Shown: positions 16,667 to 60,943 of the stretch, piece after piece
How positions within the stretch are numbered: position 1 is the first letter of the stretch
How the letters are laid out: the number at the start of each line of letters is the position of its first letter
Assembly (NCBI GenBank): GCA_002794785.1
Contig: NBBA01000008.1
Location: 558,001 to 622,000 of the forward strand
DNA length: 64,000 nt
Direction of reading: 5' to 3'
Source: Coniferiporia sulphurascens
Lineage: Eukaryota; Basidiomycota; Agaricomycetes; Hymenochaetales; Hymenochaetaceae
Position numbers and translations under genes: made by a program
The notes under the pieces: model-generated
Told to the model about the DNA's origin: nothing
Databases searched by the model: none
What the model saw: the letters and a program-made list of their open reading frames with translations, nothing else

Positions 16667-16696
16667 ACAACCAGACGCGAATATTTATTTCAAGTA

Positions 16697-16948
16697 CAGG
16701 TGGATGTAAAAAGTTACGGACCGGCCAAAAAAGGAAGGAGGTTCGCATTGAGCACCAAAGCCCCTTTTCGCTGCTCATGCGGGGTAAACAACTTGACTCA
16801 GTGCATGAGGTCCTTATAATTAGTGCTAAAATATATTGGCTTGTCGATGTACAAGCTGCATTTATGTTTTGGCTCATAAAAAGATTTGAATGAGGGTGTC
16901 TAATCTCCTTCCTTTTTTGGTCGGTCCGTAACTTTTTACATCCACCTG
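16697..16948. mobile_element. MITE with about 44-bp terminal inverted repeats, TA-flanked (copy 1)
   Basis: A 252-bp non-coding element starting CAGGTGGATGT and ending ACATCCACCTG. The ends are nearly perfect inverted repeats over about 44 bp; for example TTACGGACCGGCC at the left answers GGTCGGTCCGTAA at the right. It is flanked by TA on both sides (16695-16696 and 16949-16950), as for Tc1/mariner-type insertion. The interior is AT-rich, without an ORF. A second, reversed copy lies at 46834-60471, split by two LINEs. The superfamily is inferred from the TA duplication only. Confidence 0.88.
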
Positions 16949-16950
16949 TA

Positions 16951-16963
16951 GACAAGAGAACAA
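16951..16963. repeat. Left target-site duplication of LINE family I
   Basis: GACAAGAGAACAA here equals the bases directly after the poly-A tail at 23979-23991. The preceding A also matches, so the duplication is 13-14 bp. It begins one base after the MITE's TA duplication. Confidence 0.9.
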
Positions 16964-17023
16964 CATCCTCCTTGTCCTCTAACCACCACCATCTAGGTAG
17001 TCTTTACAAGCACTCTGCCCTCT

Positions 17024-19306
17024 ATGTCTGAACAACAGCAACAAGAACAACAACCCCCTTGCCCCATCGACAAGACGTTCTCTGCCCCCTCTGTCTCTAC
17101 ATGGGGTGGTCTTCGCTCTCTTCGTGGACGTGGGGCCAACCCACTGCTTCCTCTGGGAACGGTCACGGCTTGCTCCTCCTCGTTCTTGGGGTCGATCTCG
17201 AGCTTTTCCCGTGTGCCTCCGGTACCCCCCAAAATCCTCCCCACAGTTTCCCCACTGGCGGCGGAGATCACGTCTCACCAGCCCTTCCACCCCCTGTCTC
17301 GCGCCGCCTCCGCAGCGAGTGACCGAGGAACTGACCAGGTCATGGCACACATCTCCAGCCCGGCTATCCCGGGTCTCCCCCTCCCAGGGCCTATTTCCGG
17401 CGAAACCCTCATTTTTGGGGGTCACCCAGGCCTTTCCTCTTTCCTGGCCCCTGTCCCACAGGTCCCCCAGTCCACCTCTGCCTCCATCTGGGCGACTCAC
17501 CCCCCCACTGATGCAGCCTCTGCCTTCGTTGCGCCTGCCCCCCCTATCATGCCTCCTGGTGGTGGAGGGGTTGCCCCCCATGTAGACGAGACCCCTTGGG
17601 GCCTGTCCCGCCCTACGTCTGCGGCCATCTTGTCCATGGACTCCGACTCAGAAATGTCGGAGGCTGGGAACTCTGATGCCCAGGCATCTACGGCCTCTGC
17701 ATGGAAAAAGCGCAAATCCACTAATGCCCCAGCCCCTCTGTCCCCCAGGGCGGAAGCGCTGCAGGTCCCCCTCCTCCGGCTGGCTGCTACTACCGCTATG
17801 CGTGCCTCCCATGACCTCCTCGCACTTGGGAAGACGACCTCTGTGTCGGCTGCCTCGACTGCTGCCCTCCTCGGGGAGATTGCCTTCATGGTTAATTCTC
17901 TCAACAGTGCTCTGGTCCAGGAGGATCCTCTCGCACAATCAGCCACGACGCAGGCCTTCCGGGCGGCGGCGGGCCCCCGTCTCAGCCTGGCCCTCAGCCC
18001 CGCCCCCCCTTCTGCCCTCCCCCAGCCCCCTCAGACTGCGGCCGGTCCCCCCCCTCTTCCCTCCCTGCCACAGCAGATGGTGCAGGTCATGTCTGACCTT
18101 ACGCGCCAAATGGCCTTCATGATGCAGCGGATGGACGCCCTCGAACGCCCCCCCCCACGCTCCTCGGGGGTCGGGTCCGCCCCCTCCGGAGACAGGAAAG
18201 GGAAGGGTAAAGCCAACCCTAGTACTGCCCCTCCTCCATCACAAGGACCTTCAGGCCCTTCTAACCTCACCGCCGGGTCCACCTTGCCGACACCTGTCCC
18301 TCCAGGTCTTGCCGCGGGTGGGGCTACCCCTGCCACTGCCCCTGCTACTGCAGCGCCAGTGCCGACAGGGGCCCCCACTACTGCTAGCGCTATGAAACAA
18401 GAGCCGAAGCGTGCAGTCCTCCCGGTTATCCGTACCATTACGGACCCGACCCTCGCCATCCGCTTCCATGGGGCCCCACCTCCTGCTGAAGCGTGCCCCA
18501 CCGACTCCCAGACAACAATTAATGTCTGGACCGCCCTCTCCCGCTTTCCCACTGCGGCCAAACTGGTCATATGTGCCGCCCACTGGAATGAACGAGGCAA
18601 CTGCTTCGTTACATTTGCTCACAACACTCACGTTCCAACTATGAACAGCATGAAGGAAGTTGTGATGGCAGCCGTGCAAAGCGTCTACCCCGCCACAGTC
18701 TCCCAACTCGTATCTTGGGCCTGCCTCCAAATTGCTGAAGTCCCCACACGTCCTGCTCCGGGCCTCCCTGCCTTCACTGCAGCGGACCTCCAATTGGAGT
18801 TCCGCACCACCAACCCTCACCTCCTCTCTCTCCCCATAACTCTAGAGCCCGATTGGACCCGGGCCTATGAACTCCTGGGCGAGGATGTCATGTCTGCCCC
18901 TATTGCTTTCTCTTTCGAGGATCCAATGGGCTCCCGCTCTGCGAGCGTCCTCTCTACCCCGAGGAACTGCGTCGTGTACATGTTCGGTCACCGGCTCAAA
19001 CTGGTGGCCCGCTGTGATCTCCCTCGCCTCATGCAGTGCACTAAGTGCGCGGCGTTAGGCCACCTCGTTCAAAATTGCAGGAACTGCCCGTGGTCGTGCC
19101 TCATATGCGCTGGCCGTCATCGAACTGATGACCACCGCATGCGCTGCCCGGGATGTGTCCACGACGCCCTTCCGGCCTCCTCCCCCTGCACCCACCCCCC
19201 CAAGTGCTTGAACTGCTCCAGCGAACACCATGCCAACTCTTCCAGCTGCCCCAAACAGCGTGGCCGTGCCCGTTCCTCTTTTGCCCCACCCCCGGCTGAT
19301 GAGTAG
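17024..19306 (+). CDS. LINE family I ORF1, gag-like zinc-knuckle protein (intact)
   Basis: A 760-aa intact ORF starting MSEQQQQEQQPP about 60 bp into the element. The first about 430 residues are Pro/Ser/Ala-rich and low-complexity. A conserved domain follows (VLPVIRTITDPTLAIRFHG onward). Three Cys/His clusters come near residues 670-735: CTKCAALGHLVQNC, CLICAGRHRTDDH and CPGC...CTHPPKCLNCSSEH. Such proteins coat LINE RNA and act as chaperones. The stop TAG is at 19304-19306 and overlaps the ORF2 start. It is the only LINE ORF in the window that appears undamaged. Confidence 0.9.
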   Translation: MSEQQQQEQQPPCPIDKTFSAPSVSTWGGLRSLRGRGANPLLPLGTVTACSSSFLGSISSFSRVPPVPPKILPTVSPLAAEITSHQPFHPLSRAASAASDRGTDQVMAHISSPAIPGLPLPGPISGETLIFGGHPGLSSFLAPVPQVPQSTSASIWATHPPTDAASAFVAPAPPIMPPGGGGVAPHVDETPWGLSRPTSAAILSMDSDSEMSEAGNSDAQASTASAWKKRKSTNAPAPLSPRAEALQVPLLRLAATTAMRASHDLLALGKTTSVSAASTAALLGEIAFMVNSLNSALVQEDPLAQSATTQAFRAAAGPRLSLALSPAPPSALPQPPQTAAGPPPLPSLPQQMVQVMSDLTRQMAFMMQRMDALERPPPRSSGVGSAPSGDRKGKGKANPSTAPPPSQGPSGPSNLTAGSTLPTPVPPGLAAGGATPATAPATAAPVPTGAPTTASAMKQEPKRAVLPVIRTITDPTLAIRFHGAPPPAEACPTDSQTTINVWTALSRFPTAAKLVICAAHWNERGNCFVTFAHNTHVPTMNSMKEVVMAAVQSVYPATVSQLVSWACLQIAEVPTRPAPGLPAFTAADLQLEFRTTNPHLLSLPITLEPDWTRAYELLGEDVMSAPIAFSFEDPMGSRSASVLSTPRNCVVYMFGHRLKLVARCDLPRLMQCTKCAALGHLVQNCRNCPWSCLICAGRHRTDDHRMRCPGCVHDALPASSPCTHPPKCLNCSSEHHANSSSCPKQRGRARSSFAPPPADE

Positions 19307-22300
19307 TACATGGACGTTCATGCAACACAATGTTGCAACGTCCCGAGTGCACGTCGAAGCACTCGTCCACTCCTTCTCGTCTGCCCCCGGTGCCGCCTCT
19401 CCACCTGCGGTTATTCTTCTACAGGAACCCCCTTGGTACCCTATTGGTGCCTCCCCCTCTATGTTTGTTGCATCAGGTATGCCCGTCTTCGGCTTCCCCA
19501 CCATGCCCAACTATCACGTCTTCCTGCCCCCCTCCTCGGGGGGCACTGAACTAACACGTCCGCGTGTGGTTACACTGGTCCACCAGTCCATCCCTCTGTC
19601 TCGGGTGATTTTGGATGCCTCGTGCTCCCCATCCCGGGACATACTCACGCTAATTTTTGACACTGGCCTTGGGCCGCTTTTTGTCACTAATGTATACAAT
19701 CATGATGCGAATAAAAAAGACACCATCTCCTCCCTTGCTCTGCTCGAGCTCCCCCTGAGTGCACATTGGCTGGTTGCTGGGGACTTCAACCTCCACTCCA
19801 TCCACTGGGACCATGGCACCCACTCTGCTAGTGATGCGCAAAAAGCCCGTCCTCTGGAGCACTGGGCTGCCTCACATGCCATGCACCTCCTTAATCAGCC
19901 GGGCTTCGATACCCAGCGCCGCCCTTCCACCCAATCCACTGAATCAGTCATCGACCTCACCTGGGCTTCCCCTTCTTTGGAAGACCTCGCTTTGGGCGAT
20001 TCCTGGACACGATCGTGGGATACCCCCTCTGGATCAGACCATGCCATTATCACATGGTCTCTCCCCACCTCTTCTGAACCTTTCGTCGACCCCTTCCTCC
20101 GCCCTAAGTATGATGATTCGCTCTCTACTGAATGGTTGGAAGCTCTAGATGAACCCCTCACTACCGCCTTCGCCCTTTCAGGCGCCACCCCTCAACTCCT
20201 TGACGTCAAAGTCGCCGCCATACATGCTGCGCTGGTACTCGCCACTGATTCCTCACACCCCCCCTCTTCTTCGAAGACAGGGGGCCATAAGGTCAAGTGG
20301 TGGGATGCCTCCTGCCGTGCTCACATGGTCGCTTTGCGCGGAGCTACTCCGGCGACTCGTATCGTGCTCCGATGAGAGTCGGCCGGTATCTTTCGCTGTG
20401 CTAAACGTGCATGGGCTGACTCGTTTACCGCCTCCGTCAAGCCGGACAAAATCTGGCCAATGGCGAAGTGGGCAATGGGCACAAGACGTGCACCCATCCC
20501 CTCCTTGGTTATGGGGCACTCCACCGTGAACTCCCCTGCGGAGAAGGCTTCTGCCTTCCGGTCTAAGTACTTCGGTACCCAACCGTCCGCCGCCCTTCCT
20601 CTGACCTATTCCTTCATCGGCGCCCACCCTATGCGTGATCACCCCATCCTCATGGAGGAGCTTGACCGCGCCATACACCTCACTTCGAATTCGAGTGCTC
20701 CAGGCATTACGGGTGTTGGCTACCAGGCTCTCAAAAGCCTGCATGCCGCCCATAGTGTTCCACTCCTTGCACTTTACAATGAGTGCCTGAATGCTGGACA
20801 CCACCCCCGTCCATGGAAGGACGCTAAGGTGGTGATGCTCTGGAAACTCAATAAGAAAGACCCGACAGCCCTTAACGCATACCGCCCCATCACTCTCGAA
20901 GAAACTATGGGCAAACTCCTCAAGAAGGTTATCGCCAACCGCATCCAGTTCATTGCCAATGAACTGGGCGCTCTTCCCCCTTCCCAATTCAGTACCCGCC
21001 AAAAGTCGGGCGTTTTGGATGCCACCTCAGACCTCGTAAACGAAATTGAATCTGCATGGGCTAAACATCATGTCACAATGGCCCTCGCCGTCGACGTGGC
21101 GGGTTTTTTCCCTTCGGTTCAACATCCGCGTCTACTTGCCGTCCTCTCAGAACTAGGGTTTCCCCCTCTCCTTGTCTCCTGGGTTCTATCCTTTGTTTCA
21201 GACCACCATGTTGCCTTGTCTTTTGACGGCTTCACCGACACTCTGACCCCCATACCTAATATGGGCGTTCCCCAAGGCTCACCCATCTCGCCCATCTTGT
21301 CAGCACTTTTTGCGACTAGCCTTCTCACCTCTCTCCAGGTCTCTGATCCTCTTGTCTTCGTCCGCGCTTATGTGGACGACCACCTCCTTACCACCTCTTC
21401 GAGTTCCATCGCAACTAACGTCGCACGCCTCGAACAGGCCTATGTCTCCTTCTCCACAGCATGCTGTGCCCTCGGTCTCTCCCTGGATGATGACAAAACA
21501 GAGCTCATCCATTGGACCCGGCGACTCGCTCTGCGTGAAGACTCCCTCATTCACCCTATACATCTGCCGCGACAGGGCCTCCAACCCCTCCGAATCGTTC
21601 CCTCCCGGCCTCTGCGCTGGTTGGGAATTTTCTTCGACGCGCAATTACTGTTTACGGTTCACGTTCAGCGCATGTGCTTTAAAGCCATGTCCTCACTTCG
21701 TGCCCTGGAATTACTGGGCAACACTTTACGCGGCCTTGACCCGCTCCACCTCCAACGTCTCTACATTGGATGCATACTGCCTGTTCTACTTTGGGGTTCC
21801 CCCCTCTGGTTTACTGGCATACGACAAAAGAGTAAATGCGATAAAATGACCTTAGTTCAATCCGCTGTGTGTCGCCGTATCCTTGGATCATGGCGCACGT
21901 CTCCACATGGCCCCTCCGAGGTCCTTGCATCCATTTTACCCATCCCCCTTCGTCTAGAACATACCAAGTCTCGTGCGGCCATTCGCTATCTTACCACGAT
22001 GCACACCCTCCTTCCAATATGCACTACGCGTAAAGGTACCATTACCACATCTTTCGTCAACCGGGTTCCCCCCGGCTGCGAAAGAGTTCCCCGATACATT
22101 CGCCCACCTTGGATCTCTTTACCGGCTTTACGCCACATAAGCATCGACCGTGCGATTGACCACTCTCAAGAAGCTCAAGATGCACTCATTCAGTCACACC
22201 ATGGTCTCATAGACCAGCTGAAAGATGTCCCCTCTCGCCTCCTCATCTATACCGACGGCTCCCGTAAGGGCACGTCCCCATCCTCCTTCTCTGGCAGTGC

Positions 22301-23786
22301 TGCCAGCGTTTGGTTTTACTGTGGAGAGACCGTCCTCACCTGCGAATCCTATTTAGGTTCTGCAGTTCATGCTACGGACTGCGAACTCGCTGCCCTTGCC
22401 GATGCCGCTTGTGTTAAGCTCAACGGTTACGCGGTGATCGACGTCGGGGCTTCCTGATCGTCGGAACTGATTGTACGGCAACAGGGCTTCCTAGATGTCG
22501 TAAGTCGAGGGAGGATCGTCAGTGGGACTTCCTGATCGGCGATGTGGACGCGAGTTGCGTCGGTGGCTAGTCGGGTTACGACGAAGTGACTATTGGTCAA
22601 GTGGCACACAGTATACTGGTGGTAGCAGATAATGGGCTTGTATGAACAAAGAGCACAAGCTTAGGGCTTGTGCTACTGAAGTTACATGCTTATATGCTAC
22701 TCTATGTGTTTGCTACTGTAGCGACTTGGTTAGGTGTGTTTACCCGACTTATGGAAGGTCATGGAAACGCAAGGAAACCCTTGGTAATACAAGTATGGTG
22801 ATCAGTAAGCAAAGCACGTCATGATGGTGCAAGAAGGCGTCATCATGGCGTCTTATGGTGTAAGGCAAAATAAGGATGAGTAAGGTAGAGAAACGGGGGA
22901 GTTGCGCTGACTGATGATGACGAAGAGGAAGTGAGTCAGCGCAGTAAGGAAAGTAAAGGAAAATTGTAACAGCTTGGCTATTGGCCTACTCCTTTGATTT
23001 ACACCTGGCGGTCATGCAGGTGGAAATTTACACTGATTGCGAAGTCGCCCTCACCCTCCTCGCTGACCCTCGTCCAGCCCCAGGCGTCAATGTCGCCCTC
23101 CTTATCCGGAAGTGTCTCAAAATCGCTACCAAGCGGTTTCCCCGTGTGTTTTTTCACTTACACTGGGTCCCAGGACATTCCGATGTGGAAGGGAACGAAT
23201 TTGCTGACGTCCTCGCCTCCGGCATTGCGGACAACCCCCCCCCCCGGACACTCTTCCGTTTCCGCCCACTATCCGCTTCCTTCACGAAGCTGCCTCCTCT
23301 TCGGCGCTTTCACAATGGAAATCCGACTGGGCTTCCGCCTGTCATAAACTCCGAGGGTCTTCGGATGCCCATTCTATGGGCTCCACTCTGAACCCCTCTA
23401 CTAAGCCGTCTGCCCTTATGCAGAATCTCACTCTCGGTTGCCGCACTAAGTGCAAAGTTTTTCGGACACTCCTCGGTCACGCCGGCTTTGGCGCGTACTT
23501 TGGACGCATTCCGGGACGTGACCCTATGTGTCCCTTCTGCCATGTTCCGGAGACATGAGCTCACCTCTTGCTCTCCTGCCCACTCACCCTCCCCACTCAT
23601 CGTGCGGTGTGGAAAACCCCCCTGCCCTCTACGGAAGCCCAATGGTTTTCTAAGGACGGCCTCCCAATTTTGGCATCTTTCCTCGACTCCCACCCCGCCT
23701 TCGAGGCGGAACCCACCCTTGTCTTCGACCCGGGTGGCCCCACAGTGGTACATATTTCTGACCGAGGGTTCGCCCAGGGCAACTAG
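19299..23786 (+). pseudogene. LINE family I ORF2: endonuclease, reverse transcriptase, RNase H; broken
   Basis: ATG 19299 opens the polyprotein. The APE endonuclease (AGDFNLHSIHWDHG, GSDHAII) is followed by an in-frame TGA at 20373-20375. The same frame then continues through the reverse transcriptase to 22457, with AYRPITLEETMGK, LAVDVAGFFPSV, MGVPQGSPISP and the catalytic FVRAYVDDHL. RNase H begins LLIYTDGSRKGT and is cut at 22411 by a solo LTR. It resumes after 22976 with VEIYTDCEVALTLL and HLHWVPGHSDVEGNEFAD. A frameshift near 23300-23380 and a TGA at 23556-23558 break the C-terminal CPFCHVPET...HLLLSCP segment. Without the LTR and its duplication the RNase H frame is continuous, so that insertion is secondary. 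Confidence 0.9.
22412..22971. mobile_element. Solo LTR of an LTR retrotransposon
   Basis: A 560-bp insert begins TGTTAAGCTC and ends AATTGTAACA, so it has the TG...CA ends of an LTR. It is flanked by a 5-bp duplication GCTTG at 22407-22411 and 22972-22976. It contains no ORF of note. Removing it and one duplication joins the RNase H reading frame of the host LINE exactly. A solo LTR is what remains after recombination between the two LTRs of a full element. Gypsy or copia origin cannot be told from the LTR alone. Confidence 0.9.
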
Positions 23787-23978
23787 GCAGAAAACCACAC
23801 TTCCCTTCTTCCGCTGCCCTACGACAGCTCCAATCTCTGCCTCTGGCATCCCATCACTTGTTTGCTCTCTATACCAACTACCATCTCACTCAATACAGGG
23901 GCCTAAAGGCCCCTGGAGCGTATTTTGTACTAGATAGTCATGACGCGCTATAGAAATGCATTTAAAATAAAATAAAAA

Positions 23979-23991
23979 GACAAGAGAACAA
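23979..23991. repeat. Right target-site duplication of LINE family I
   Basis: GACAAGAGAACAA follows the A-rich tail and matches 16951-16963 base for base. Confidence 0.9.
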
Positions 23992-46060: not shown

Positions 46061-46833
46061 CGAATTTCAAGCGAATCCAGTTCTCCGCGTATGCTAATTC
46101 GGTACCCTTAGGATTTAATGACAGTAAGATTTGAAACATCGCATGAGTTTCGTATTCCTCAACGAACTAGATTTAGTGGGTTCTTACCTTGCAACACGCA
46201 AACGAGCTGTAAAACCAGTCTGACGAGAGGTCCGTACTGAGCCGAAATTGATGTTCGGTGCAGGATATGTGCCCACTACGCCCGCTTTTATAGACCTCAG
46301 CATGCTCGAGACATTGCATATATTATTGAGCCGCTTTGTCTAACAATGCCACCGTTGAGTTCACGAAATGGAAAAAGACCTCATCAAAGCTGCGGCCACA
46401 AAGTCGTCTATCGCCTCTTGGACACTGAACCACAGCTTTTTTTTGTTAAGCATAGTGAACGCCAAAAGGAGGGTTTGAAAGAAGTGTGCTTTCCGAGACT
46501 CCACATGTTAGGCCTCAGGCCCCGTCCACTTAATGTATACTTACCAAGTTACCAGGTTCCACCGAAAATGACGATGCCTGCCTTCAGCCAGCTTTCCGAG
46601 TGCTTGGAAAAAGCACATTCATCTTCCGATCGGTTGAACGATGTCTCCAAGCGCATGCGTTAATAACAGCAAAATTATAGAATTCGGCATTTAGGAACAG
46701 TATTGTGCAGCAAGACTAGACTAGATGTTGGGAAGCTAAGAGCTAGACGTCGTAAACATCGTAGCAATCAACGGGAAATAGAATAACTACGGTAAACGTA
46801 CGCGATTAGTAATCAACGCCGTTATCGTGACTA
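46061..46833. other. Intergenic with one small ORF of doubtful status
   Basis: A 105-codon ORF at 46346-46663 (+) starts MPPLSSRNGKRPHQ, with no recognisable domain; it may be chance. The rest is AT-rich. Confidence 0.35.
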
Positions 46834-47050
46834 CAGGTGGATGTAAACGGACCGACCAAAAAAGGAAGGAGATCAAACGCCCTCGTACAAATATTTTTTG
46901 TGAGCCAAATCAAAGCTGCAGCTTGTATATAGACGTGTCAATATATTCTGACACTGACTATAAGGTCCTCTCACACTGAGTCAAGTTGTTTGTCTCGCAT
47001 GAGCAGCGAAAAAAGTGTTTGATGCACAATGTGAACCTCCTTCCTTTTTT

Positions 47051-47064
47051 GGCCGGTCCGTAAC
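47051..47064. repeat. Target-site duplication, left copy (GGCCGGTCCGTAAC)
   Basis: This 14-mer belongs to the MITE inverted repeat and abuts the A-rich tail (T-rich on this strand) of LINE II-A. It is identical to 60449-60462. Confidence 0.9.
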
Positions 47065-47250
47065 TTTATTTTTTTTATTTTTTTTATTTTTAATTCAGCA
47101 TTTGTATACTGCTACATTACAGAGTAAAAGACGCGGATATGAAACCATATGAAGTATCGTGCCAGAGGAGATTAACAAGGTATAAAGTTTCTGGTTTTAA
47201 GGCTATGAAATGGTAGGATGTTTGTGTTTCAGAATTTGTTAAAGGTGAAT

Positions 47251-50200
47251 TTAAGGCGGAAAGAATCTGGAATTAAGAATTGGATCGTGTGTTGTAAATG
47301 ATTTAGTAAAGGCTTTCGACGAATTAAAAAAGGAGGCGAGTTTTTGAAGATAAGTTTCTTTTGTGAACAAAATGTGGTCCGGAGGTGGTATGACATTCCT
47401 GAATGCTTGAATGCGTGCGGATTTGAGAAGAGGGCATCGTCGGATAAGATGGTCTCTCGATTGGATAGGTTCCCCGCAAGGGCAAGAGATTGATTCGGTT
47501 GGTACGAAATGCCTGTAGTAATCTCCAAAATGGCCGTGTCCAGTAATGGCATGGAATATGCGCGATGAAATGTCCCGAGGGTAGTAAAACTTTTTCCAAA
47601 ATTGTGGTAATTTCGAAGATGGTATTCCGGTTATAGTGTTAAATGACGTGGACTCCGATATGTTTTTGGTGTTTTGAATTAGGTGGGACCATGATGTGAT
47701 AGCACGAAGGTTGATGTCTTCCTTCTCTCCTGCGTATGTTTTTTGTAGGAATGGACGGCCAATTGGTGAAAAATGAGTAAGCTTGTCGGTGATGACGTTT
47801 CCAGGAATGTCAAGATGACCTGGGGACCAATGAAGGTGAATATGATGTTCGGTGTTTGAAGTAAAAGTGTCAGAGAAATTGTGGAATAATTTAGAAGAGC
47901 ATTGGGCAGCGTGAGGGGATAAGTCAATGATAGCAGGAATGCAAGATGATGAATCTGAAAAGAAATGGATGTTTTTGATATGAATAGATGAAAGAATATG
48001 ACGTTGTCGGAATAATGTGATTCGTTCTGTACATTTGGCAAGGGCGTACATTTCTGCATCGAACGATGAGCCAGAGGGAGAGCAATAGAAATGACCAAGG
48101 TCGACTACTAGGCCTTTATGATAGATAACGAAAGATGAAATGGTGACAGATTTGTTGTTTTTGTAGTTTTTTGAACCGTCTGTGTAAACTATTAAATTGT
48201 GAATATTTTTTGATAAAGAATCGTGTAAAAGAATAATTTTGTTTTTTTGGGAATTTTTTCGATCAATAGAGGATGTTCTGGATTCGAGATGATAAGATAA
48301 CGCTTTGTAATGGTATTGCGATGGATTAGAGGGAAGGTGTTGTGACGGATGGGCGAGGTATGGATTGATATGTTCAGTGCGAGGGTCTGCGAGGAAGGCG
48401 AGGCGATGAAGTTGTGTTTTTGGTTTTTTTGATGTGGATTGATGTCGTGATGTAATTGGTGGTTTCGAAGTAGGAAGATGTGGCCAGGTTGCTGGAAGTC
48501 GGTTAAGAAGTTGAGAATTAAGAGGCAGTCTGTTGAGGCGAAGAGCGGTGGATTGATTGTATTTCTGAAGGAGGATTGGAATTGGGAGGATATGTGCGAT
48601 TCGGTGTAGTGCGTGCGATGGTGTAGTGCGAAAGGTACCGGTAAGAAGGCGAATGCTTTGATTTTGAGCAATAGACATTTGATTCATTTTGGATTGTTGT
48701 CGTATGCCGGTAAACCATAGTTGAAATCCGTATGTAAGGACGGGCAGAATATTGGCGAAATGTAAGGTCCGAAAGTTGGCGAATGACAGACCACGGATTG
48801 TGTTGCCAAGAATGTGTAGTGCCATGGTGGTTGATCGTGCTCTCATGCACATGCGGTGGATGTGGTCATTAAAATTGAGTCTTTGATTGAGATAGAAACC
48901 AAGCCAACGAATGACTGGTGACGGGGTAATAGTAATGGGAGGAGCGTGAATATTTGAAAGGGTAATAGAGGGAAATGAAGTTGGAGAAAACCTGTGTCTA
49001 ATAAAGTGAATGAGGTCAGATTTAAAATGATCAATGGAGAGTTGTATGTTGTTAAGTTTGTTGGAAATGATGTTATAGGCTTTTTTAAGAAGACAGATAT
49101 TTTCTTGATATGATTCGGAATATACTAGGATGAGTTGGTCGTCAACATATGCTTTAAGACAAGTGTCCGAAGAGGAAATGAATGAATCAAGAATAAAAGC
49201 GGTGTATATCGTGGAAAGGATTGGTGAAATGGGTGATCCCTGTGGAATACCGACGTTATGAATAGGTTTTTGTTCAGAAGTAAAATTGTCAATTTTAAAA
49301 GATATATGACGATCAGAGAGAAAAGCTTGCGTCCAAAGAATAATTTTTTGATCAAATCCCAGTAAATGTAAAGAATGTAGAAGTCATGTGTGATTGACGT
49401 TGTCGAAATAACCTTTGATGTCGATAGCGAGTGCTGATGCAATGAGTTTCTTTTTATGGGCGATCTGAATATCGTGAATAAGTGAGAGGCCTGTGTCGAT
49501 GGTGCACGAATTGGAACGGCCGCCAAATTGAATAGTGGGAACTAGGTTGAATCGACCGACATCCCAGGTGAGACGTTTCGCAATGATTTTTTCCAAAACT
49601 TTTCCTATGCATTCGAGGAGTGCAATTGGCCAGTATGATCGAGGGTTACTAGAGTCAGTTTTGTTAGGTTTTGGAATTAGGACAATGTTAGCATTTTTCC
49701 ACGGATGAATATGACGGGAGAAACATTCATTAAATAAATAAAATAAAATTGTTGGGTGGACTGAATTAACCCATTTAATATATGCATATGATATGTTTGA
49801 AATGCCGGGTGCTGAGTTGTTATGTGTAAGATTGAGGCACGTGTCGATTTCGTTCTGGGTGATACGAGGAGAAGATCGAGTAGGTTTTTTGGGAGGGTCG
49901 TACGGAAGGTCGGTGACATTTGGTTGTCGAATATTTGAAAAGAAGGATTGGTGAAAGACGTCCGCTTGTTGTTCTGGCGTATGGACGAATTGGTCTTGAT
50001 AAAGAATAGGTGGTGTGTGTGTTTTTCTTTTCCCAGAGGACCATTTGGCATATCGGTAAATGTCGTAAGATGAAGCTCCTTTGAGGACGGAAGTGGCCCA
50101 TGATTGTTTGGCTTTTTTGAAAATGATTCATGCTTCTTTGTGGAGATGTTCTTTTTCGAAATTTTCGGAGCAGTCCCTGAATGCATGTATTGCTTGGGCA

Positions 50201-51198
50201 CATTCGTCGTTCCACCAGTATGAATAGGAAAAAGTTGTCGACGATGTCTGTGGCATGATTTCTGATGTTGTTAGTAATATTTTTTCAGAAAGTTTATTAG
50301 CGTATTCATAAACGGAGTCGTCGGTTGAAAAAGTAGGAAGCGGTTGATCGTCTAAGTGAAAACTAAATTTTTCAATCCATTCCTTTTTCTGTTCGGGATC
50401 GTACTTGTATGTGGTAGGTGATTCATCGGGTTGGAAGTCATTGTTGATTGGGAGATATGCAATTGTTATCGGAATATGGTTGGATGAGTAGGCTGCCATA
50501 TCGATGCATGTCCAGTCATAAAAGAAATCGGAAAGAATTGCTGAGAAATTTATAAGCGTTAGGTCAATAATAGAGTCGTGTTGTCGATGTTGTCCTTTGC
50601 GTGTTGGGAAATCTGTGTCGTTAAGGATGAAAAGGGACTGGTCTTGGGTCCATGTAAGGAAGGTTTCGGCTTCTGCTGTTGTTCGTCGTGGGTTTCTATC
50701 AGGGAGTCCCCATTCCGAATGGTGTATATTGAAGTCGCCCATAATGCACGTAGGAATGTCGTAGTCGAGTTCGATATCGGTAAGGAAGCGAATGTTGTCA
50801 CCTAAGATGCCGGAGCCGTAATTGTAGCAGTTAATAAGACGTAATGTTTTGTTTAAATACGTGACGTCAATTGTCATAAAGTCTTTATGATTAGTAATGT
50901 CCTGATGCGAAATAGCTGAAAGATGAGGAAATGATTTTCTGACGTAGATGATCACGTGAGGTTTAATGGGAGCGTTAGTATTGTAAGTAGGAATAAAATA
51001 GTCCCAAGCCGGATGTTTTATCGGAAGAAAGATGGGAGTTCCATCAGGATCTGAGTCAGAGCGAGTGATACCAGAGAAACCGATAAAAGGTTCTTGCAAT
51101 GCTAGAATATGTAGATTCGGGTTATTGAGTAGTCATGTCGTTCATGGTCCGCTTTTTGCTACATTTAGCTGAAGTATTCGAAGGGCCATATGATTCAT
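47251..51198 (-). pseudogene. LINE II-A ORF2: endonuclease, reverse transcriptase, RNase H; four TGA codons
   Basis: A single frame of 3948 nt from ATG 51198. The APE endonuclease has MGDFNIHHSEW; its usual SDHIPI motif reads SNHIPI here, so a catalytic Asp is changed. The reverse transcriptase has PIALLECIGKVLEK, IDIKGYFDNVNHT, VGIPQGSPISPI and AYVDDQLILV. RNase H has VYTDGSKNYKN, SSFDAEMYALAK and LHWSPGHLDIPGN. The C-terminal knuckle is CPCGEPIQSRDHLIRRCP. In-frame TGA codons lie at 51142-51144, 51133-51135, 50128-50130 and 49384-49386; where the sister copy is alignable, CGN codons stand there. The length equals that of copy B exactly. Confidence 0.92.
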
Positions 51199-53558
51199 AA
51201 AGTATTGTCGTTAACTGAATTGTATGGGTCGACATGCATGGATGGGGATGACGGGCGTGTAATTGATGAGTTGGAAATGAGATTGTGTCGGGATGGGTGA
51301 ACGTTGATAAGATTTGGGTTGGTCGTTGTTGGTGATGGCGGGGATGATAAAGTCATGCGGATTGGTGCTGGGAAACGATTGAAATAGAGTGCGCATTGTG
51401 AGCAGTCAATAGAGTCGGCCGGGTGTGCTCCTGAACAATTTACGCAGAAAAAGTGATCGCAAGGTTGATTTTCTTGATAGCGCACACTAGAGCATCCTGA
51501 GCACATTTCGCAATGTTGAGATGTAAGGTGACGTTTCAATGCGCAATAACGGCATCCAAGTGGTTGGTTGCATTGAATCGTGAGGTGTCCAAATTTCCAG
51601 CATTTCGTGCATTGTGAGAATCGAGGTTTTGATTTCCATTCTACAGGAACTGTGGATTGACCAAAAATGAAAAATACCGATGTTGTTACTTTGCATAATA
51701 GATCTCCGTTAGGGTCTTCAAATGCGAATGATATAGATGACCGTGGTTTGGTGATAAGTTCAGGGTTACGTGCCCATCGCAGAGGTTGAGTAATTTTTAG
51801 TGAACGGAATAGGTCGTTGAGTAATAAAGATCGGAGGATTACAAGTTCGGAGAAAATCGGAAGGTTGGGCCCGTTTGATGTTATAATATTACTGAGTATT
51901 ACTTTAGACCATTTGATGTCTCGGGTGATCATAAGAGGGTGATTAGGTCGTAATTCGAAGGCTTCTTTTAGGATCGGGATGATGGTGTTGATGGAGTTTA
52001 TCGAAACATTGCTGGGAAATGAGAAGATGCAATTACCGGACATATTCCAATCGGCGCCAATGATACGAATGTGTTGAGCTGTGGGAATGCGGTCGAGTTT
52101 CAACTGGATTCTGTCGATTAGTGTTTTTGAATTTGGTCGTATGGATAAAGGAATGTTTTGACCCTGAAAGCGGGCAACGTAACGCGTAAGATTTGAAATT
52201 GAAGCTGGAGCCGATGGTAAGAGTTTGGGTTGATTCGTTGGCATGTTGAGTCCCAGGTGGTCTTTGTACGTGAGAGTGCTGATAGGTTGGTTTGCGATAG
52301 GGTTACAAATAAGGACAGGAGAGGGGGTTCATTGTCTAGGTCCTAAGGGTCGGGTGCGGCTAACAGTTTCGGTTTGAGTTGGGGGTTGAATAAACCCATG
52401 GCTGATGTTATCGGGTTCATGAGTGTCTTCGGAAAAGGAAACGTGTCTATTGTCATGACTGAATGGAGTTTTTTCTTTTTGGATAGGTGTTTCGATAGAG
52501 GCCATGGTTTCCTCCAGTTGGACCAATCTAGAGATGAGACGAGATTCCAGATCTTGTGCGTGTTTCTTTGCTTGTTCCTGAAGCGTCGTTTGAAGGTTGT
52601 TGATCATAGACGTGATGGTAGAGAAGTCGGGTCCTGAATTGGCGTTGCCCAAAGTGGGTTCGTTATCATTGTAAGCATTATCGTATATGGAGTCTGGGAA
52701 AAGAATAGGGTTCCGAACTTTGAAGTCGAATTGGCCAGCGTCATCGATGGTGATTTTTTTGTAAGTAATTGGTGTCTTTGGGTCGGCCGGGTGAATAATT
52801 GAAACCGCTGTGTTTGAAGGTATGAAATGAAGATGGAAAAGTTGGATCACGTTGGCTAGAGAATTCATGGAATGATCTGTGAGGTGTTGATTAAACTTGG
52901 AGGGCCACGTTTTCGCAATGAGATTCAAGATTTGTTCAATAGAGAGAGTCCACTCGTCAAATGAACCAGGCGCGAGTATGTTTTCGATCGTGTTTCGTGT
53001 TTCGGAAATGATTATTTGATCCTCAATGTTTGACTCATCAGGTGACAGAGTAAATCGGAGTCTGCGTTGTTGGTGCGTGGGAGGTTCGGAGGAAGAAGAC
53101 GATTGTGATTGGATCGAAGCTTGATGTGACAGAATAGGGGCTGGTGCATGTGTTGTGCCCTGTATAGTCGTGTCTGAAGGGGAGGCGGCTTGTAGGAGTG
53201 ACTGAGAGTCCAAGGGAAAAACGACGTCCATAGGTGTTGCTACTGGAGCTGCAAGTGTGATGTCTGAATAATTGGCATAAGTAGAAGTAAAATCTTGAAA
53301 ATGTGCATTGAAGGATGGGCCTTGAGATGTAGGCATAGATAAGACAGAAGGAGACTGAGACGACGGTAATATTTGCTGGTGACCTGTTATATTGATGTTT
53401 TTGTCGATTTCTTGGTTTTCTTTAGGTGGGGACGGAAGAGGACGAGGTGGTGAGTGTGAAGCTGGAATGTTGGGGACCATGGAGTTGTATTGGTGCATTT
53501 CGTCTGGGGTGTTGGCGTATGTCTGGCTGCTGAGAGATGGGTTTTGAGAGTTCGCCAT
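51195..53558 (-). pseudogene. LINE II-A ORF1, gag-like zinc-knuckle protein, one TGA
   Basis: ATG 53558 begins MANSQNPSLSSQTYANTPDE. A Ser/Pro/Gln-rich N-terminal half carries a coiled-coil-like stretch (QTTLQEQAKKHAQDLESRLI). A TGA at 52329-52331 interrupts the frame (CAA-TGA-ACC, against CAA-CGC-ACC in copy B), and the same frame then continues to the knuckles CTKCWKFGHLTIQC, CRYCALKRHLTSQH and CEMCSGC, and to the stop at 51195. The last codons read ...DNTL, stop, with ATGA shared with ORF2. No frameshift was seen. Confidence 0.9.
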
Positions 53559-53752
53559 GGGGGGAAAGAAAAATAAAGGAGGTAGGGGATATGGGGGAAG
53601 GGAAGTGGATATGGTGAAGTTAAGTGTAAAACAGCTCGACGAGTGTCTACTGTGAGTGAGGACCTGGTGTGGGTGGTTAACCCAGAGAGTTTAGGGGCGG
53701 CGAATGTGGCTGTGCTTAGGGTGAGATGATGGTGGTCAGAGGTCAAGGGGTT

Positions 53753-53763
53753 GGCCGGTCTGT

Positions 53764-53766
<3 letters not shown>
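53753..53766. repeat. Target-site sequence between the two LINEs (GGCCGGTCTGTAAC)
   Basis: The same 14-mer as the outer two except for one C-to-T change in a CpG. It abuts the 5' end of copy A on its left and the poly-T (3' tail) of copy B on its right. Confidence 0.9.
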
Positions 53767-53802
<36 letters not shown>

Positions 53803-53961
53803 TGCATTTGTATACCGCTACATTACATAGTAAAAGACGCGGATGTGAGACTAAATGAAGTGTCGTGTCAGAGGAGATTAACAAGGTATAAAGTTTCTGG
53901 TTTTAAAGCATGAAAATCAAAGGTAAGAGGTTTGTGTTTCGGATAGTGAGATAAAAATGAA

Positions 53962-56900
53962 CTATGGTGGAAAGAATCTGGAATTGGGAATCGGGTCGTG
54001 TACTGTAAAAGATTTGGTGAATGCGTTCGAAGAGTTGAAGAAGGAAGCGAGCTTTTGTAGAAAAGATTCTTTGGTGAATAATATGTGGTCTGGAGGTGGG
54101 ATGGCATTCCCGAAGGCTTGTATGCGTGCGGATTTGAGAAGAGGGCATCGACGAATAATATGATCTCTTGTTTGAATATGTTCCCCGCATGGGCATGAAA
54201 TGTTTTCGGTTGGAACGAAACGCCTGTAGTAGTCTCCGAAATGGCCATGTCCGGTGATGGCGTGGAAGATGCGCGAAGATATATCTCGAGGGTAGTAGAA
54301 TTTTTTCCAAAACTGAGGTAATTTGGAGGATGGTATGTTGGTGATGGTATTAAATGACATCGACTCCGATATGTTTTTTGTGTTTTGAATGAGGTGAGCC
54401 CAAGATGATATCGTCTGAAGGTTAATATCTTCCTTTTCGCCTGCGTATGTTTTTTGAAGGAATGGACGGCCAATTGGTGAGAAATGGGTAAGCTTGTCGG
54501 CGATGACGTTGCCAGGAATGCCAAGGTGACCTGGAGACCAATGAAGGTGAATATGATGACGGGTGTTGGAAGTAAAAGAGTCAGAAAAACTACGGAAAAT
54601 TTTTGAAGAACATTGTGCGGCGTGAGGGGATAGATCAATAATGGCAGGAATGCATGATGATGAATCAGAGAAAAAGTGAATATTAGAGATGTGGATAGAG
54701 GAAAGAATGTGACGTTGACGGAAAAAGGTGATGCATTCAGTACATTTTGCGAGGGCATACATTTCTGCGTCGAATGAAGAGCCAGATGGTGAACAATAAA
54801 AATGACCGAGATCGACTACGAGTCCTTTGTGATATATTACGAATGAAGAAACGGTGACGGATTTGTTGTTTTTGTAATTTTTTGAACTGTCTGTATAAAT
54901 GATTAAATTGTGAATATTTTTGGATAATGAATCGTGTAAAAGGATAATTTGATTTTTTTGGGAATTTTTTCGATCAAGGGAAGATGTTCCGGACTCGAGG
55001 TGATAGGAAAGAGCTTTGTAATGATATTGAGACGGATTAGAAGGGAAATGTTGAGATGGATGTGCTAGGTAAGGATTGATATGTTCGGTTTGTGGGTCGG
55101 CGATGAAAGCGAGACGATGTAGTTGGGTTTTTGGTTTATTTGAGGTGGAAAAATGTCATGAAGTGATGGGTGGTTTAGATGTAGGTAAGCGAGGCCAAGA
55201 TGAAGGTAGTCGGTTTAATAGTTGAGAATTGAGTGGGAGTCTATTGAGTCGTAAGGCGGTGGATTGGTTATGTTTCTGTAAGAGAATAGGTATGGGAAGA
55301 ATATGGGCAATGCGGTGTAGGGCATGAGACGGTGTGGTTCGGAAAGTACCGGTAAGAAGTCGAAGGCTTTGGTTTTGTGCGACGGACATTTTGTTTAGTT
55401 TGGGTTTTTGTCGAATACCGGTGAACCAAAGTTGGAATCCGTATGTGAGAACAGGTAAAACGTTCGCGAAGTGTAGGGTCCGGAAGTTGGCAAAAGAAAG
55501 GCCACGAATTGTGTTGCCGAGTATGCGAAGGGCCATAGTGGTTGAGCGTGCCCTCATGCACATGCGGTGGACGTGATCGTTAAAGTTGAGTCTCTGATCA
55601 AGGTAAAAACTGAGCCAACGTATGACTGGAGAAGGTGTGATGGTAACCGGAGGGGAATTAATATTGTTAAGAATGATGGATGGAAATGAAGTGGGGGAAA
55701 AACCGCGTCTGATAAAATGGATAAGGTCAGATTTCAAATGATCGATAGAGAGTTGTATATCGTTGAGTTTGTTAGAAATAATGTGGTAGGCATTTTTAAG
55801 GAGGCGAATGTTTTCCTGATAAGAATCGGAATATACTAAAATGAGTTGGTCGTCGACGTAAGCTTTGAGGCAAGTATCTGAAGATGAATTGAAAGCATTA
55901 AGAATGAAACCGGTGTAAATGGTTGAAAGGATTGGAGAGATAGGCGATCCTTGTGGGATGCCAACGTTGTGGATAGGTTTTTGTTCAGAAATAAAATTGT
56001 CAATTTTAAAGGAAATGAGACGGTCAGAAAGGAATGCTTGCACCCAAAGAACGATTTTTTGATTGAATCCTAATAAATGTAAAGAATGTAAAAGTCGAGA
56101 ATGGTTGACGTTATCGAAGTATCCTTTGATGTCGATTGCGAGAGCTGATACACAAAGTTTCTTTTTATGAGCGATTTGAATGTCGTGAATAAGAGAGAGG
56201 CCAGCGTCGATAGTGCAAGAGTTGGAACGGCCCCCGAACTGCGTAGTGGGAACTAAGTTGAATCGACCGACATCCCATGTGAGGCGTTTGGCGATAATTT
56301 TTTCCAAGATTTTTCCGATGCATTCAAGGAGGGCGATGGGTCGGTAAGAACGCAGGTTACTAGAATCTGTTTTGTTAGGTTTGGGAATAAGTACTATGTT
56401 AGCATTTTTCCACAGGTGAATATGACGCGAGAAACATTCGTTGAATAGATCGAATAAAATTGATGGATGAACTGAATTAACCCATTTGATGTATACGTAT
56501 GAAATGTTAGATATGCCTGGTGCCGAGTTATTATGTGTGAGATTGAGGCATGTGTCTATTTCATTTTGAGTGATACGAGGGGAAGATCGTGTTGGTTTCT
56601 TTGGTGGGTCGTAAGGAAGGTTAGTAACGTCTGGTTGTCAGTCAGTAGAAAAGAATGATTGATGAAAGACGTCTGCTTGTTTGTCGGGCGTATGTGCGAA
56701 TTGATTTTGATATGATATTGGTGGCATTCGAGTTTTTCGTTTCCCAGACGACCATTTTGCGTATCGGTAGATATCATATGATGACGCTCCTTCGAGAACT
56801 GATGTTGCCCATGACTGTTTCGCTTTTTTGAAGATAATACGCGCTTCTTTGTGTAGATGTTCTTTTTCGAAATTTTCGGAGCAATCTCTAAAGGCGTGTA

Positions 56901-57909
56901 TTGCTTGGGCGCATTCGTTGTTCCACCAATACGAATAGGAAAAGTTAGACGAAGAAGTTTTTGGCATGATTTCTGTGGTTGTTAGTAAGATTTTTTCAGA
57001 TAGTTTATTAGCGTAATCATGCACAGAGTCATTATCGGTGAAAATGGGAAGTGGTTGGTCATCGAGGTGAAAACTGAATTTTTCAATCCATTCTTTTTTA
57101 CGTTCTGGGTCATACTTATAGGTTATTGGAGCGTCTTCGGGTTGAAAATCGAGGTTGATAGGAAGGTACGCAATGGTAATTGGGATATGGTCGGATGAAT
57201 ATGCTGCGATATCGATGCAGGTCCAGTCGTAGAAGAAGTCAGAGAGGATTGCTGAAAAATTGAGAAGCGTTAGATCAATAATAGAGTCAGCTTGTCGATG
57301 TTGTCCTTTTCGTGTAGGAAAGTCGGTGTCGTTGATAATGAAAAGGGATTGATCTTGAGTCCAGGTTAGGAATGTTTCAGCTTCGGCAGTCGTTCGGCGC
57401 GGTTGTCTGTTGGGTAGTTCCCATTCTGGATGATGAAGATTGAAGTCGCCCATAACGCATGTCGGTATGTCGTAATCGAGTTCTGTATCAGTGAGGGTGC
57501 GTATGTTTTCTCCCATGATGCCGGAGCCGTAATTGTAGCAATTCATGATGCGGAAGGTTTTGTTTAAATACGTGACGTCGATGGTCATAAAGTCCTTGTG
57601 GTTGATGATATCTTGTCGCGAGATTGCTGATAAATGTGGAAAAGATTTTCTGACGTAGGTGATGACGTGGGGTTTTATGGAAGAGTTAGTATCATAAGCG
57701 GGAATAAAATAATCCCAAGATGGATGTTTGATAGGGAGAAAAATAGGAGTCCCTTCGGGGTTAGTATCAGATCGGTTTAGGCCGGAGAAGATAATGCACA
57801 GTTCTTGAAGTACGAGGATATGTAATTTTGGGTTATTGAGGAGTCGAGTAGTACGTGGGCCGCTTTTAGCTACATTTAGCTGAAGAATTCGAAGGGCCGT
57901 GTGATTCAT
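53962..57909 (-). pseudogene. LINE II-B ORF2: endonuclease, reverse transcriptase, RNase H; two TGA codons
   Basis: A single frame of 3948 nt with the same domain order as copy A. The endonuclease has VMGDFNLHHPEW and an intact SSDHIPITI motif. The reverse transcriptase has AIDIKGYFDNVNHSRL, VGIPQGSPISPI and AYVDDQLILV. RNase H has YTDSSKNYKN (Gly of YTDGS changed to Ser) and LHWSPGHLGIPGN. The knuckle is CPCGEHIQTRDHIIRRCP. TGA codons lie at 56638-56640 and 55156-55158, both where copy A reads CGA. This is the least damaged ORF2 in the window. Confidence 0.92.
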
Positions 57910-60252
57910 AAAGTGTCGTCGTGAACTGAGTTTTGCGGGTCGATGTGCATAGACGGGGAAGATGGGCGGGTAACGGATGTGTTGGTAATAAGGCTGCGTC
58001 TGGATGGGTGGACGTTAATCAAATTTGGGTTAGTTGCAGATGGTGAGGGTGGAGACGAAAGGGTCATTCGGACTGGAGCTGGAAAACGATTGTAATACAT
58101 AGACCGTTGTGGACAATCGATGGAGTCAGCTGGGTGAGCGCCGGAGCAATTTACGCAATAGAAATGATCACAGGGTTGGTTTTCTTGATAACGGGCACTG
58201 GAACATCCTGAACACATTTCTCGATGCTGAGAAGTAAGATGATGTTTGGAGGCGCAGTATTGACAGCCTAAGGGTTGATTGCATTGGATTGTGAGGTGAC
58301 CAAACTTCCAACATTTGGTGCATTGTGAGAACCGAGGTTTTGCTTTCCACTCGACGGGTACTGTAGATTGACCGAAAATGAAGAAAACTGACGTCATTAC
58401 TTTACGTAATAAATCTCCGTTTGGATCTTCGAAGGCGAAGGAGATGGATGACCGAGATTTAGTGATGAATTCGGGATTGCAAGCCCAGCATGGGGGTTGG
58501 GTAATTTTTAGGGATCGGAATAGGTCGTTAAGGAGAAGAGACCAGAGAATTTCGAGTTCGGTAAAAATTGGCATATTAGGTCCGTTTGACGTAATGATAT
58601 TGCTGATTATAACCTTGGACCATTTGGTGTCACGGGTGATGGTGAGGGGGTGGTTGGGTCGTAATTCGAATGCTTCTTTGAGAATTGGGATAATCGTGTT
58701 AATAGAATTAGTAGAAATATTGCTGGGGAATGAGAAAATGCAATTTCCCGCCATGTTCCAGTCCGCGCCAATGATCCGAATATGCCGAGCTGTTGGGATG
58801 CGGTCAAGCTTGAGTTGGATTCGGTCAATGAGAGTTTTTGAGTTAGGTCTGACGGATAATGGAATGTTCTGTCCTTGGAAACGAGCGACGTAACGGGTCA
58901 GAGTTGAAATAGACGCTGGTGCTGATGGTAAAAGTTTTGGTTGGGTATTCGGCATATTGAGGCCCAGGTGATCCTTGTAGGTTAGAGTGCTTATTGGTTG
59001 GTTAACTACTGGGTTCCGGACGAGAACAGGAGATGGGGTGCGTTGTCTTGGTCCTAATGGACGGGCCCGAGGGGTGGTATCTTGCACAATAGGGGAAATG
59101 AAACCGTGGCTAACGTTATTGGGTTCGTATGTATTTTCGGAGAAAGAGACGTGTTTGTCGGTATTTTGATGCGCTGGTTTATCGATTGTGGCTACTGTTT
59201 CTTCGAGCTGAACGAGTCGGGAAAGAATACGAGATTCGAGATCTTGAGCATGCTTTTTTGCCTGTTCTTGAAGCGTTGACTGAAGGGAGTTAATCATATT
59301 TGAAATTTCCGAGAAATTGGTTTCCGTTGGTTTGGTTGTCGGAGTGTTTACGTCCTCGTCATCATAAGCATTGTCGTACATGGAGTCAGGGAAGAGAATG
59401 GGGTTCCGGACTTTAAAGTCAAATTGGCCAGCGTCGTCGATGGTAATTTTGTTGTATGTAATCGGGGTTTTTATATCGGCTGGGTGTATGACTGATACTT
59501 TGGTGTTAGACGGAACGAAATGCAGGTGAAAAAGTTGTATGGCATTCGCGAGTGAATTCATGGAGTGGTCGGTAAGGTGTTGATTGTATTTGGTTGGCCA
59601 TGTTTTTGCAATGAGGTTAAGGATTTGTTCGATGGAGAGGGTCCATTTGTCAAAAGATGCTGGGGCTAAAATGTTTTCCAAGGCGTTACGTGCTTCAGAA
59701 ATGATAATTTGATCTTCAATGTTTGATTCGTCCGGTGTCGGTGTGAATCGAAGGTGTCGATGTTGTTGCGTGTGACTTTCGGAAGATGAAGAAGATTGAT
59801 GTGACTGAATCGAAGATTGGTGTGACAGTATAGGGGCAGGTGCATGTATAGTGGCAGGACGAGTCATGTCAGTTGGGGAGGCAGCCTGTACGAGAGATTG
59901 AGAATCCAAGGGGAAAACTACGTCCATTGGAGTGACCGTTGGTGCAGCTAGGGTGATATCTGAGTAATTGGCATAGGTGGAAGAAAAGTCTTGAAAATGA
60001 GCATTGAAAGAGGGGTCTTGAGATGTTGGCATAGATAAGACAGAAGGGGTTTGAGACGACAGTAATATTTGCTGATAACCTGTTATGTTAATGTTTTTGT
60101 CGGTTTCTGGGTTTTCTTTGGGCGGAGACGGAAGAGGGCGGGGGGTGAGTTTGAAGAGGAATGTTGAGGTTTTGAGAGTTGTATTGACGCATCTCTTCTG
60201 GGGTGTTGGCGAATGTCTGGCTGCTGAAAGATGGGTTAGGAGAGTTCGCCAT
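57906..60252 (-). pseudogene. LINE II-B ORF1, gag-like, N-terminal frameshift
   Basis: ATG 60252 begins MANSPNPSFSSQTFANTPEE. Near 60140, two bases are missing relative to copy A in a C-rich stretch, so the start frame ends early. The remaining about 740 codons are open in another frame down to 57906, including the coiled-coil-like LQSTLQEQAKKHAQDLESRI and the knuckles CTKCWKFGHLTIQC, CQYCASKHHLTSQH and CSGC. The long open frame that extends upstream of the ATG into the MITE is a by-product. ORF1 ends TTA-TGA with ATGA shared with ORF2. Confidence 0.88.
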
Positions 60253-60448
60253 GGGGGAAAGAAAAATAAAGGGGGTAGGGGAAATGGAGGATTGGGAAGT
60301 GGATGTGGTGAAGTTGAGTGTAAAACAGCTCGACGGATGTCTACTGTGAGTGAGGACCAGGTGTGGGTGGTTAACCCAGAGAGTTTAGGGGCGGCGAATG
60401 TGGCTGTGCTTAAGGTGTGATGATGGTGGTCAGAGGTCAAGGGGTGCT

Positions 60449-60462
60449 GGCCGGTCCGTAAC
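60449..60462. repeat. Target-site duplication, right copy (GGCCGGTCCGTAAC)
   Basis: Adjoins the 5' end of LINE II-B and continues directly into the MITE tip ATCCACCTG and its TA duplication. Confidence 0.9.
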
Positions 60463-60943
60463 ATCCACCTGTAAGTACTGTAGAAAAAAGTTCCTGCCCT
60501 TGTGCAAGGTCCCATCCATGCTCGGTCGGGAGACTCAGTCTTTTCATTTTATTGCATCCCTTACGGTATCCTTGAAGGATCTTCATTTCCGAAAATCGCC
60601 TGGATTGATATAAAGAACTATCAAAAATACCCTCGGTGAATCTGGCACCGTGACCCCATGGCATACTACAAGAGCCAGGTACTCGGTGCTGCGGAGGCCA
60701 GTGCGACCTGCCACTATACAAATCTCGGAGGTTCCTCGCAATTCTATGGCATTCGTGCTGGCTAAGGCTGTCGTGCGAACGGATATACCCTTTTTTGAGT
60801 AACAAACTTATGATAACTCTACCGATTTCAAGTCAGGACGTTTGGACTCTAGAGGCTCGTAATATGCGACCATAATATCGAATTCCTCCTGGTATCCACG
60901 TGCCGATGATCTAATATTCTAGAACCACAAGTCTAAGGGGTTC

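Follow-up and report, generated by a model that had tools for sequence, protein, structure and literature searches.

Architecture of the double LINE II locus

The window, a 64,000-nucleotide stretch of contig NBBA01000008.1 of Coniferiporia sulphurascens, contains two full-length LINEs, LINE II-A and LINE II-B, which lie head to tail on the minus strand within one of the terminal inverted repeats of a 256-bp MITE (MITE1). The left part of this MITE (46832-47064), consisting of the TA, the left terminal repeat, the body and the inner right terminal repeat, is 82.5% identical over 240 positions to an intact MITE at 16694-16948 and is cut by the LINEs. LINE II-A (47065-53752, minus strand) has an endonuclease frame at 50128-51132, which was scanned for domains, and further predicted frames at 49384-50127 and 47251-49383 that are interrupted by stops or shifts. 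LINE II-B (53767-60448, minus strand) has ORF1 in the frame 57906-60548, followed by an endonuclease (56638-58014), a reverse transcriptase (RT; 55156-56637) and an RNase H-like region (53962-55155). Comparison of the terminal repeats placed the outer end of the right terminal repeat, ATCCACCTG plus TA, at 60463-60473 (plus strand), and the outer halves join into one MITE with TA at 46832 and 60472. Each of the two LINEs has its own A-rich tail and its own 5' end.

Three copies of a 14-bp target duplication, GGCCGGTCCGTAAC, were located by a 14-mer search and by reading the flanks (all given for the plus strand): one on the 3' side of LINE II-A (47051-47064), one between the LINEs (53753-53766, with one change) and one on the 5' side of LINE II-B (60449-60462). 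These findings confirmed the preliminary description, in which the 14-mer borders both LINEs and its outer copies run into the halves of a TA-flanked MITE. When two or fewer mismatches were allowed, the window contained five matches, compared with a mean of 0.40 and a maximum of 2 in shuffled sequences. The other two matches, at 16713 (exact) and 16919 (one mismatch), fall in the two inverted repeats of the intact MITE at 16695-16950, indicating that the 14-mer belongs to the terminal repeat of the MITE.

In the orientation of the LINEs, each element is bounded by GTTACGGACCGGCC, with the middle copy reading GTTACAGACCGGCC, and the A-rich tail precedes the downstream copy. The change in the middle copy is ACGG to ACAG (LINE orientation) and lies at a CpG, where singleton changes are common in these LINEs. 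The most frequent singletons, C>T and G>A, make up 133 of 309, 67 of them at CpG, and the change fits this spectrum. The outer MITE end at this locus lacks 7 bp of the canonical AAAAA/GTTACGG context, a loss that could have preceded or followed the insertions.

MITE1 has the features of a MITE: it is short, its long terminal inverted repeats agree at 48 of 55 ungapped positions, it has TA on both sides and it is present in many copies; 60 MITE1 ends with three or fewer mismatches were found in the 39.3 Mb (31 contigs) of genome searched. A related family, MITE2, is about 267 bp long and has ends that read TACAGGTGGATATAATTAG, like those of MITE1; three further copies were read besides the one at L088. 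MITE2 was seen at L009 (8587-8853, on the downstream side of a LINE II copy and about 60 bp away from it), L139 and L155-L157. At L070, L073 and L138, MITE1 copies are interrupted by an apparent LTR-type element starting TATTAAATAAATATAA. The MITE1 copy at L068 (C5:1914900-1916700) carries a LINE II-type derivative of about 0.86 kb in its left terminal repeat, with the duplication GGAAGGAGGTTCAC, and the 5' end of a third type of LINE lies 14 nt outside its right end. A portion of the L068 derivative is found again upstream of LINE I in L102.

Enrichment of LINE I at MITE ends

The intact MITE1 copy of the window (16695-16950, TA on both sides by comparison of terminal repeats) belongs to the same family as the MITE at the double-LINE locus, and its right end is the landing site of a LINE of another family, LINE I, which begins 14 nt after position 16950. 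The 5' copy of the LINE I target duplication, GACAAGAGAACAA (16951-16963, plus strand), directly follows the TA of the MITE, as read from the flanks, and its 3' copy, a 13-bp recurrence, is found at 23979-23991 (plus strand). Between them, LINE I (16965-23978, plus strand) encodes an endonuclease (19212-20375) and an RT (20376-22457), and an LTR-like insert of about 600 bp lies near 22412-23008, with its ends read by eye.

Genome-wide, five of the 59 exact LINE I 5' ends lie 14, 14, 14, 15 and 17 nt beyond one of the 60 MITE1 ends, with the LINE pointing away from the MITE. These are the window copy, C3:85706, C2:666943, C1:4328928 and C3:1458022; the first four are at one and the same MITE1 end and C3:1458022 is at the opposite end. 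Shifting the LINE I positions by up to 2, 10, 50 and 200 kb gave means of 0.017, 0.0034, 0.0012 and 0.0012 matches against the five observed (≤2 in 20,000 trials), and a control with the reversed pattern gave no LINE I/MITE1 matches. Although the search pattern permitted gaps of 5-34 nt, all five matches fell within 14-17 nt. A sixth LINE I copy, at L088, starts 14 nt beyond the end of the related MITE2 (78% identity over 176 bp). At C3:1457-1458k, a MITE1 lies within a MITE2, with one LINE I at the MITE2 end and another at the MITE1 end.

The 5' flanks of LINE I were read in 47 of the 59 copies, and pattern searches for CACCTGTA and CTGTA covered all 59. At the remaining 53 of 59 5' ends we recognised no MITE end, 12 of them having been judged by pattern only, which indicates that the specificity is partial. 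Judged against LINEs of the Tx1L type, LINE I shows enrichment far above chance and a nearly fixed nick position, but the share of copies at the MITE ends (6/59) is not a majority. LINE I thus behaves like a semi-specific LINE whose preferred targets are the ends of two MITE families; it is not strictly site-specific, since most copies are elsewhere. The suggestion in the preliminary description that a MITE end is a preferred landing site for a LINE therefore holds for LINE I (six of 59 5' ends), but not for LINE II, the family for which it was originally made.

Nick position, target motif and order of insertion

The 3' flanks of LINE I were read for 20 copies, five of them at MITE ends, a set outside which lie the 3' duplications of C3:1458022 (where an LTR-like insert intervenes) and C6:1763173. 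All 20 have target duplications, that of L091 being matched in part by the script. In the five copies at MITE ends, the distance from the TA to the start of the duplication is 0, 1, 1-2, 0 and 0 nt. The duplication starts at CTGTA in none of the remaining 15 copies read, and the motif is therefore not required. Across all 59 LINE I 5' ends, CTGTA occurs at 14-17 nt in eight, compared with 0.23 expected, including two cases in which no MITE was recognised: L103 (TACTGTA, with the duplication read by eye) and L147 (CCATCTGTA, a candidate). CACCTGTA occurs at 1092 sites in the genome; LINE I is present at five of the 56 sites in MITE1 ends, as we counted them from the list of MITE1 ends, versus none of the 1036 others, which include MITE2 ends (P ~3e-7). 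CACCTGTA alone is thus insufficient, and a longer motif or the MITE itself must matter.

Most likely, to judge from these sequences, the LINE I endonuclease favours a motif of about CCA(C/T)CTGTA that is supplied by MITE ends. The positions of the duplications place the nick at the terminal TA or within 2 nt outside it; LINE I would nick the opposite strand there, presumably through recognition of the sequence by its endonuclease, and the nick is expected on the strand reading TACAGGTGG, adjoining the MITE boundary. With a nick at or just outside the TA, the LINE I duplication consists of whatever genomic DNA follows the MITE.

The explanation that we favour for the observations as a whole, and consider probably correct, is that a MITE was hit twice by a weakly selective LINE II and that LINE I separately prefers MITE ends. 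A broader reading, which we regard as a minor possibility, is that MITE ends are landing pads shared by several LINE families: LINE I may be on its way to true specificity for MITE ends, and the same attraction, exerted by a common motif, by repeat-driven DNA structure or by transposase activity, may lie behind the double hit by LINE II, the derivative of LINE II and the third LINE at one MITE. We think it unlikely that MITEs attract LINEs of any family through hairpin-forming repeats or nicks left by transposase. MITE ends or terminal repeats are the sites of six LINE I copies, of LINE II-A and LINE II-B, of the derivative of LINE II and of the third type of LINE, as such attraction would predict, and the MITE2 near the LINE II copy L009 leaves it some room. 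However, the LINE I nick lies 0-2 nt outside the TA, where Tc1/mariner-type transposases are not known to cut. Of the other LINE II copies read, none (0/36) is in MITE1 and one has a MITE2 about 60 bp away, and LINE I uses CTGTA also where no MITE was recognised.

An order of events in which LINE I came first, with the MITE transposase choosing a TA just upstream of the LINE and LINE I having no preference for MITEs, is unlikely. Either order yields the same final structure, and MITE1 is flanked by TA, as this alternative requires. However, the LINE I duplication starts where the MITE ends (to within 0-2 nt, in five of five copies), a boundary that should bear no physical mark once the LINE is in place, so that a later MITE would not be expected to find it; moreover, the case with a 17-nt gap tracks the start of the duplication and not that of the LINE. 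LINE I is also found at CTGTA where no MITE was recognised. For the five copies at MITE1, the triplets preceding the far-side TA are AAG, ATG, CAG, ACT and ATA, with CTG in none. The absence of CTG from the flanks that preceded the MITEs indicates that CTGTA came with the MITE and that the MITE was there first.

Two independent LINE II insertions and the target choice of the family

LINE II-A and LINE II-B are 79.5% identical and fall in separate groups, with supported splits between them, in two trees, one built on the 3' 3.2 kb of 22 copies and one on the 5' 3.2 kb of 19 full-length copies. LINE II-A groups with L009 and L010 in the 3' tree and with L011, L014 and L026 in the 5' tree, while LINE II-B groups with L021, L025 and L027 in the former and with L027, L013 and others in the latter. 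As the two elements belong to different LINE II lineages, the locus holds two insertions, not one copy duplicated, and the trees of both element halves bear out the earlier proposal of two independent insertions at one nick site.

It is highly improbable that the tandem is an artefact of assembly, such as the stacking of the two nuclei of a dikaryon in one contig. A double hit at the same nick is rare, with one tandem found genome-wide, as an artefact might lead one to expect; stacking, however, would still call for two independent hits on a single nick, and the junctions are clean on either side.

A specific recognition of the MITE terminal repeat by the LINE II endonuclease, as the preliminary description had proposed, could account for two independent insertions at one nick within a MITE and for the LINE II-type derivative of L068, which lies in the terminal repeat of another MITE1, about 20 bp deeper. 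Of 124 LINE II candidates, 40 were scored; beyond LINE II-A and LINE II-B, both flanks were read in 36 of 38 copies and the 3' flank alone in two. Target duplications were present in 35 of the 36 copies with both flanks read (all except L052) and measured 10-18 nt by script, with a leading A left uncounted. None of the 35 duplications resembles the 14-mer, and none of the 36 copies has a MITE1 flank. In the 40 nt ahead of the 5' end, these 36 copies matched the 14-mer at 9 of 14 positions at best, versus 13 and 14 in LINE II-A and LINE II-B; in random 40-mers the median best match was 7 and the 95% value 9. Unrelated target duplications in other family II copies are what the preliminary description had named as counting against its proposal, and with 35 such duplications in hand we reject MITE-end specificity for LINE II, to which we would now assign only a very slight chance.

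A site-specific LINE has most of its copies at one target, which is not the case for LINE II at the MITE, given that 0/35 other duplications resemble the site. The only preference seen was weak: the duplication starts with G in 20 of 35 copies and is preceded by T in 8, a leading A being indistinguishable from the tail. In the copies read, LINE II is thus an ordinary endonuclease-type LINE with a weak nick preference and no MITE specificity. The 5' flank of one copy, L025, resembles the MITE2 end over 22 bp, a weak lead with an E value of 0.003 among more than 100 query pieces.

LINE II 5' ends numbered 47 as exact matches and 92 when one mismatch was tolerated. The mark of a tail-to-5'-end tandem, a stretch of A lying 5-34 nt from a 5' end of LINE II type, occurs at one place in the genome, the locus described here; the patterns ask for five or more consecutive A and for a 5' end that is intact, and so pass over tandems in which a copy is truncated or a tail broken. 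On this count we rejected the idea that LINE II habitually forms tandems.

That a single insertion was followed by tandem duplication or gene conversion is barely credible and is contradicted by the trees: the 14 bp shared by the three junctions, apart from one change at one of them, would suit it, but the two elements fall in separate groups for both halves, are 79.5% identical and differ in their tails and 5' ends.

Within the explanation that we favour, a first LINE II copy would have nicked the terminal repeat at GTAAC, duplicating 14 bp by ordinary target-primed reverse transcription, and a later copy of the other lineage would have re-used one of the two duplicated sites, nicking the same base. 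Every insertion copies its target, and the site therefore survives on both sides. The canonical nick context of MITE1 is AAAAA/GTTACGG, and the LINE tail and the duplicated target together rebuild it, which may have raised the odds of a second LINE II hit. By our arithmetic, about 1e-4 same-nick coincidences are expected under uniform insertion (124 candidates in 39.3 Mb), and somewhat more with a weak motif; a double hit by LINE II at one nick stays improbable on that assumption. Some local favour at the site is therefore likely, although no rule for the whole family follows.

Classification and relation to known LINEs

LINE I and LINE II-B both have an endonuclease of the Exo_endo_phos type and an RVT_1 domain, and LINE II-A has the endonuclease, its RT being outside the region scanned. 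LINE I and LINE II are APE-type LINEs with A-rich tails and short target duplications. They are 38% identical to each other in the RT region and 25% in the endonuclease. The RNase H profile scored 23.1 bits in LINE II-B, under the Pfam cut-off of 25.8. Searches of solved structures with the two endonucleases gave no match at an E value of 0.01. A search with the LINE I RT returned 46 proteins, the best of which was 92% identical, and one from Coniferiporia weirii was 37% identical.

Tad1-like fungal LINEs carry RNase H; the LINE here likewise comes from a fungal genome and combines an endonuclease and an RT with a putative RNase H-like region. We know of no MITE preference in Tad1-like LINEs. 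Tx1L of Xenopus laevis, an APE-type LINE, has the DNA transposon Tx1D as its insertion target. Like LINE I, it inserts on a multicopy DNA transposon, but it is described as strictly specific and as inserting inside its target element, whereas LINE I is partial in its choice (6/59) and uses the outer end, so that its duplication is flanking genomic DNA. Insertion of Tx1L into Tx1D is the nearest precedent known to us, of which LINE I may be regarded as a variant. The targets of R1, TRAS and SART are rDNA or telomeric repeats, whereas most copies here are scattered. Strictly site-specific LINEs are thought to derive from scattered ones, and to our knowledge intermediates between the two are rarely caught. 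About one in ten exact LINE I 5' ends lie at the ends of the two related families of MITE, which gives LINE I the look of such an intermediate. The ends of DNA transposons multiply and rarely matter to the host, as targets of a LINE.

A first nick set by the endonuclease and a duplication of about 10-20 bp are what R1, TRAS, SART and other site-specific APE LINEs have in common with the LINEs here; APE LINEs are described as having some specificity of the first nick and usually 10-20 bp duplications (PMC6895275). Target-specific LINEs of the APE type fall in the Tx1 and R1 clades according to another study (PMC4640811), and a third names 'other TEs' among the targets of non-LTR lineages and has the Tx1L paper in its references (PMC8869645). 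The literature searched yielded no title on LINEs targeting MITE ends, a weak negative as subscription papers were mostly outside its scope. A MITE-end landing site, presented as new in the preliminary description, would have a precedent in Tx1L on a DNA transposon.

Other repeats in the window and genome

A second, partial LINE I copy occupies positions 6-3102 of the window on the minus strand and is 87% identical to the first. The sequence of the LTR-like insert in LINE I (TGTTAAGCTCAAC..., about 600 bp, window about 22412-23008) is found elsewhere in a second LINE I copy (L140). L112 and C22:87401 are LINE 5' ends of different families that have in common an upstream stretch containing CTGTAACGAGTTTGACTTA. 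Among the matches listed, the 5' ends of a related LINE (CATCCTTCTTGTCCTC) form one main block per contig, possibly marking centromeres; the blocks, again among the matches listed, are at 1.33-1.52 Mb in C1, 1.53-1.72 Mb in C2, 2.08-2.30 Mb in C3, 0.61-0.78 Mb in C4 and 0.75-0.94 Mb in C6.
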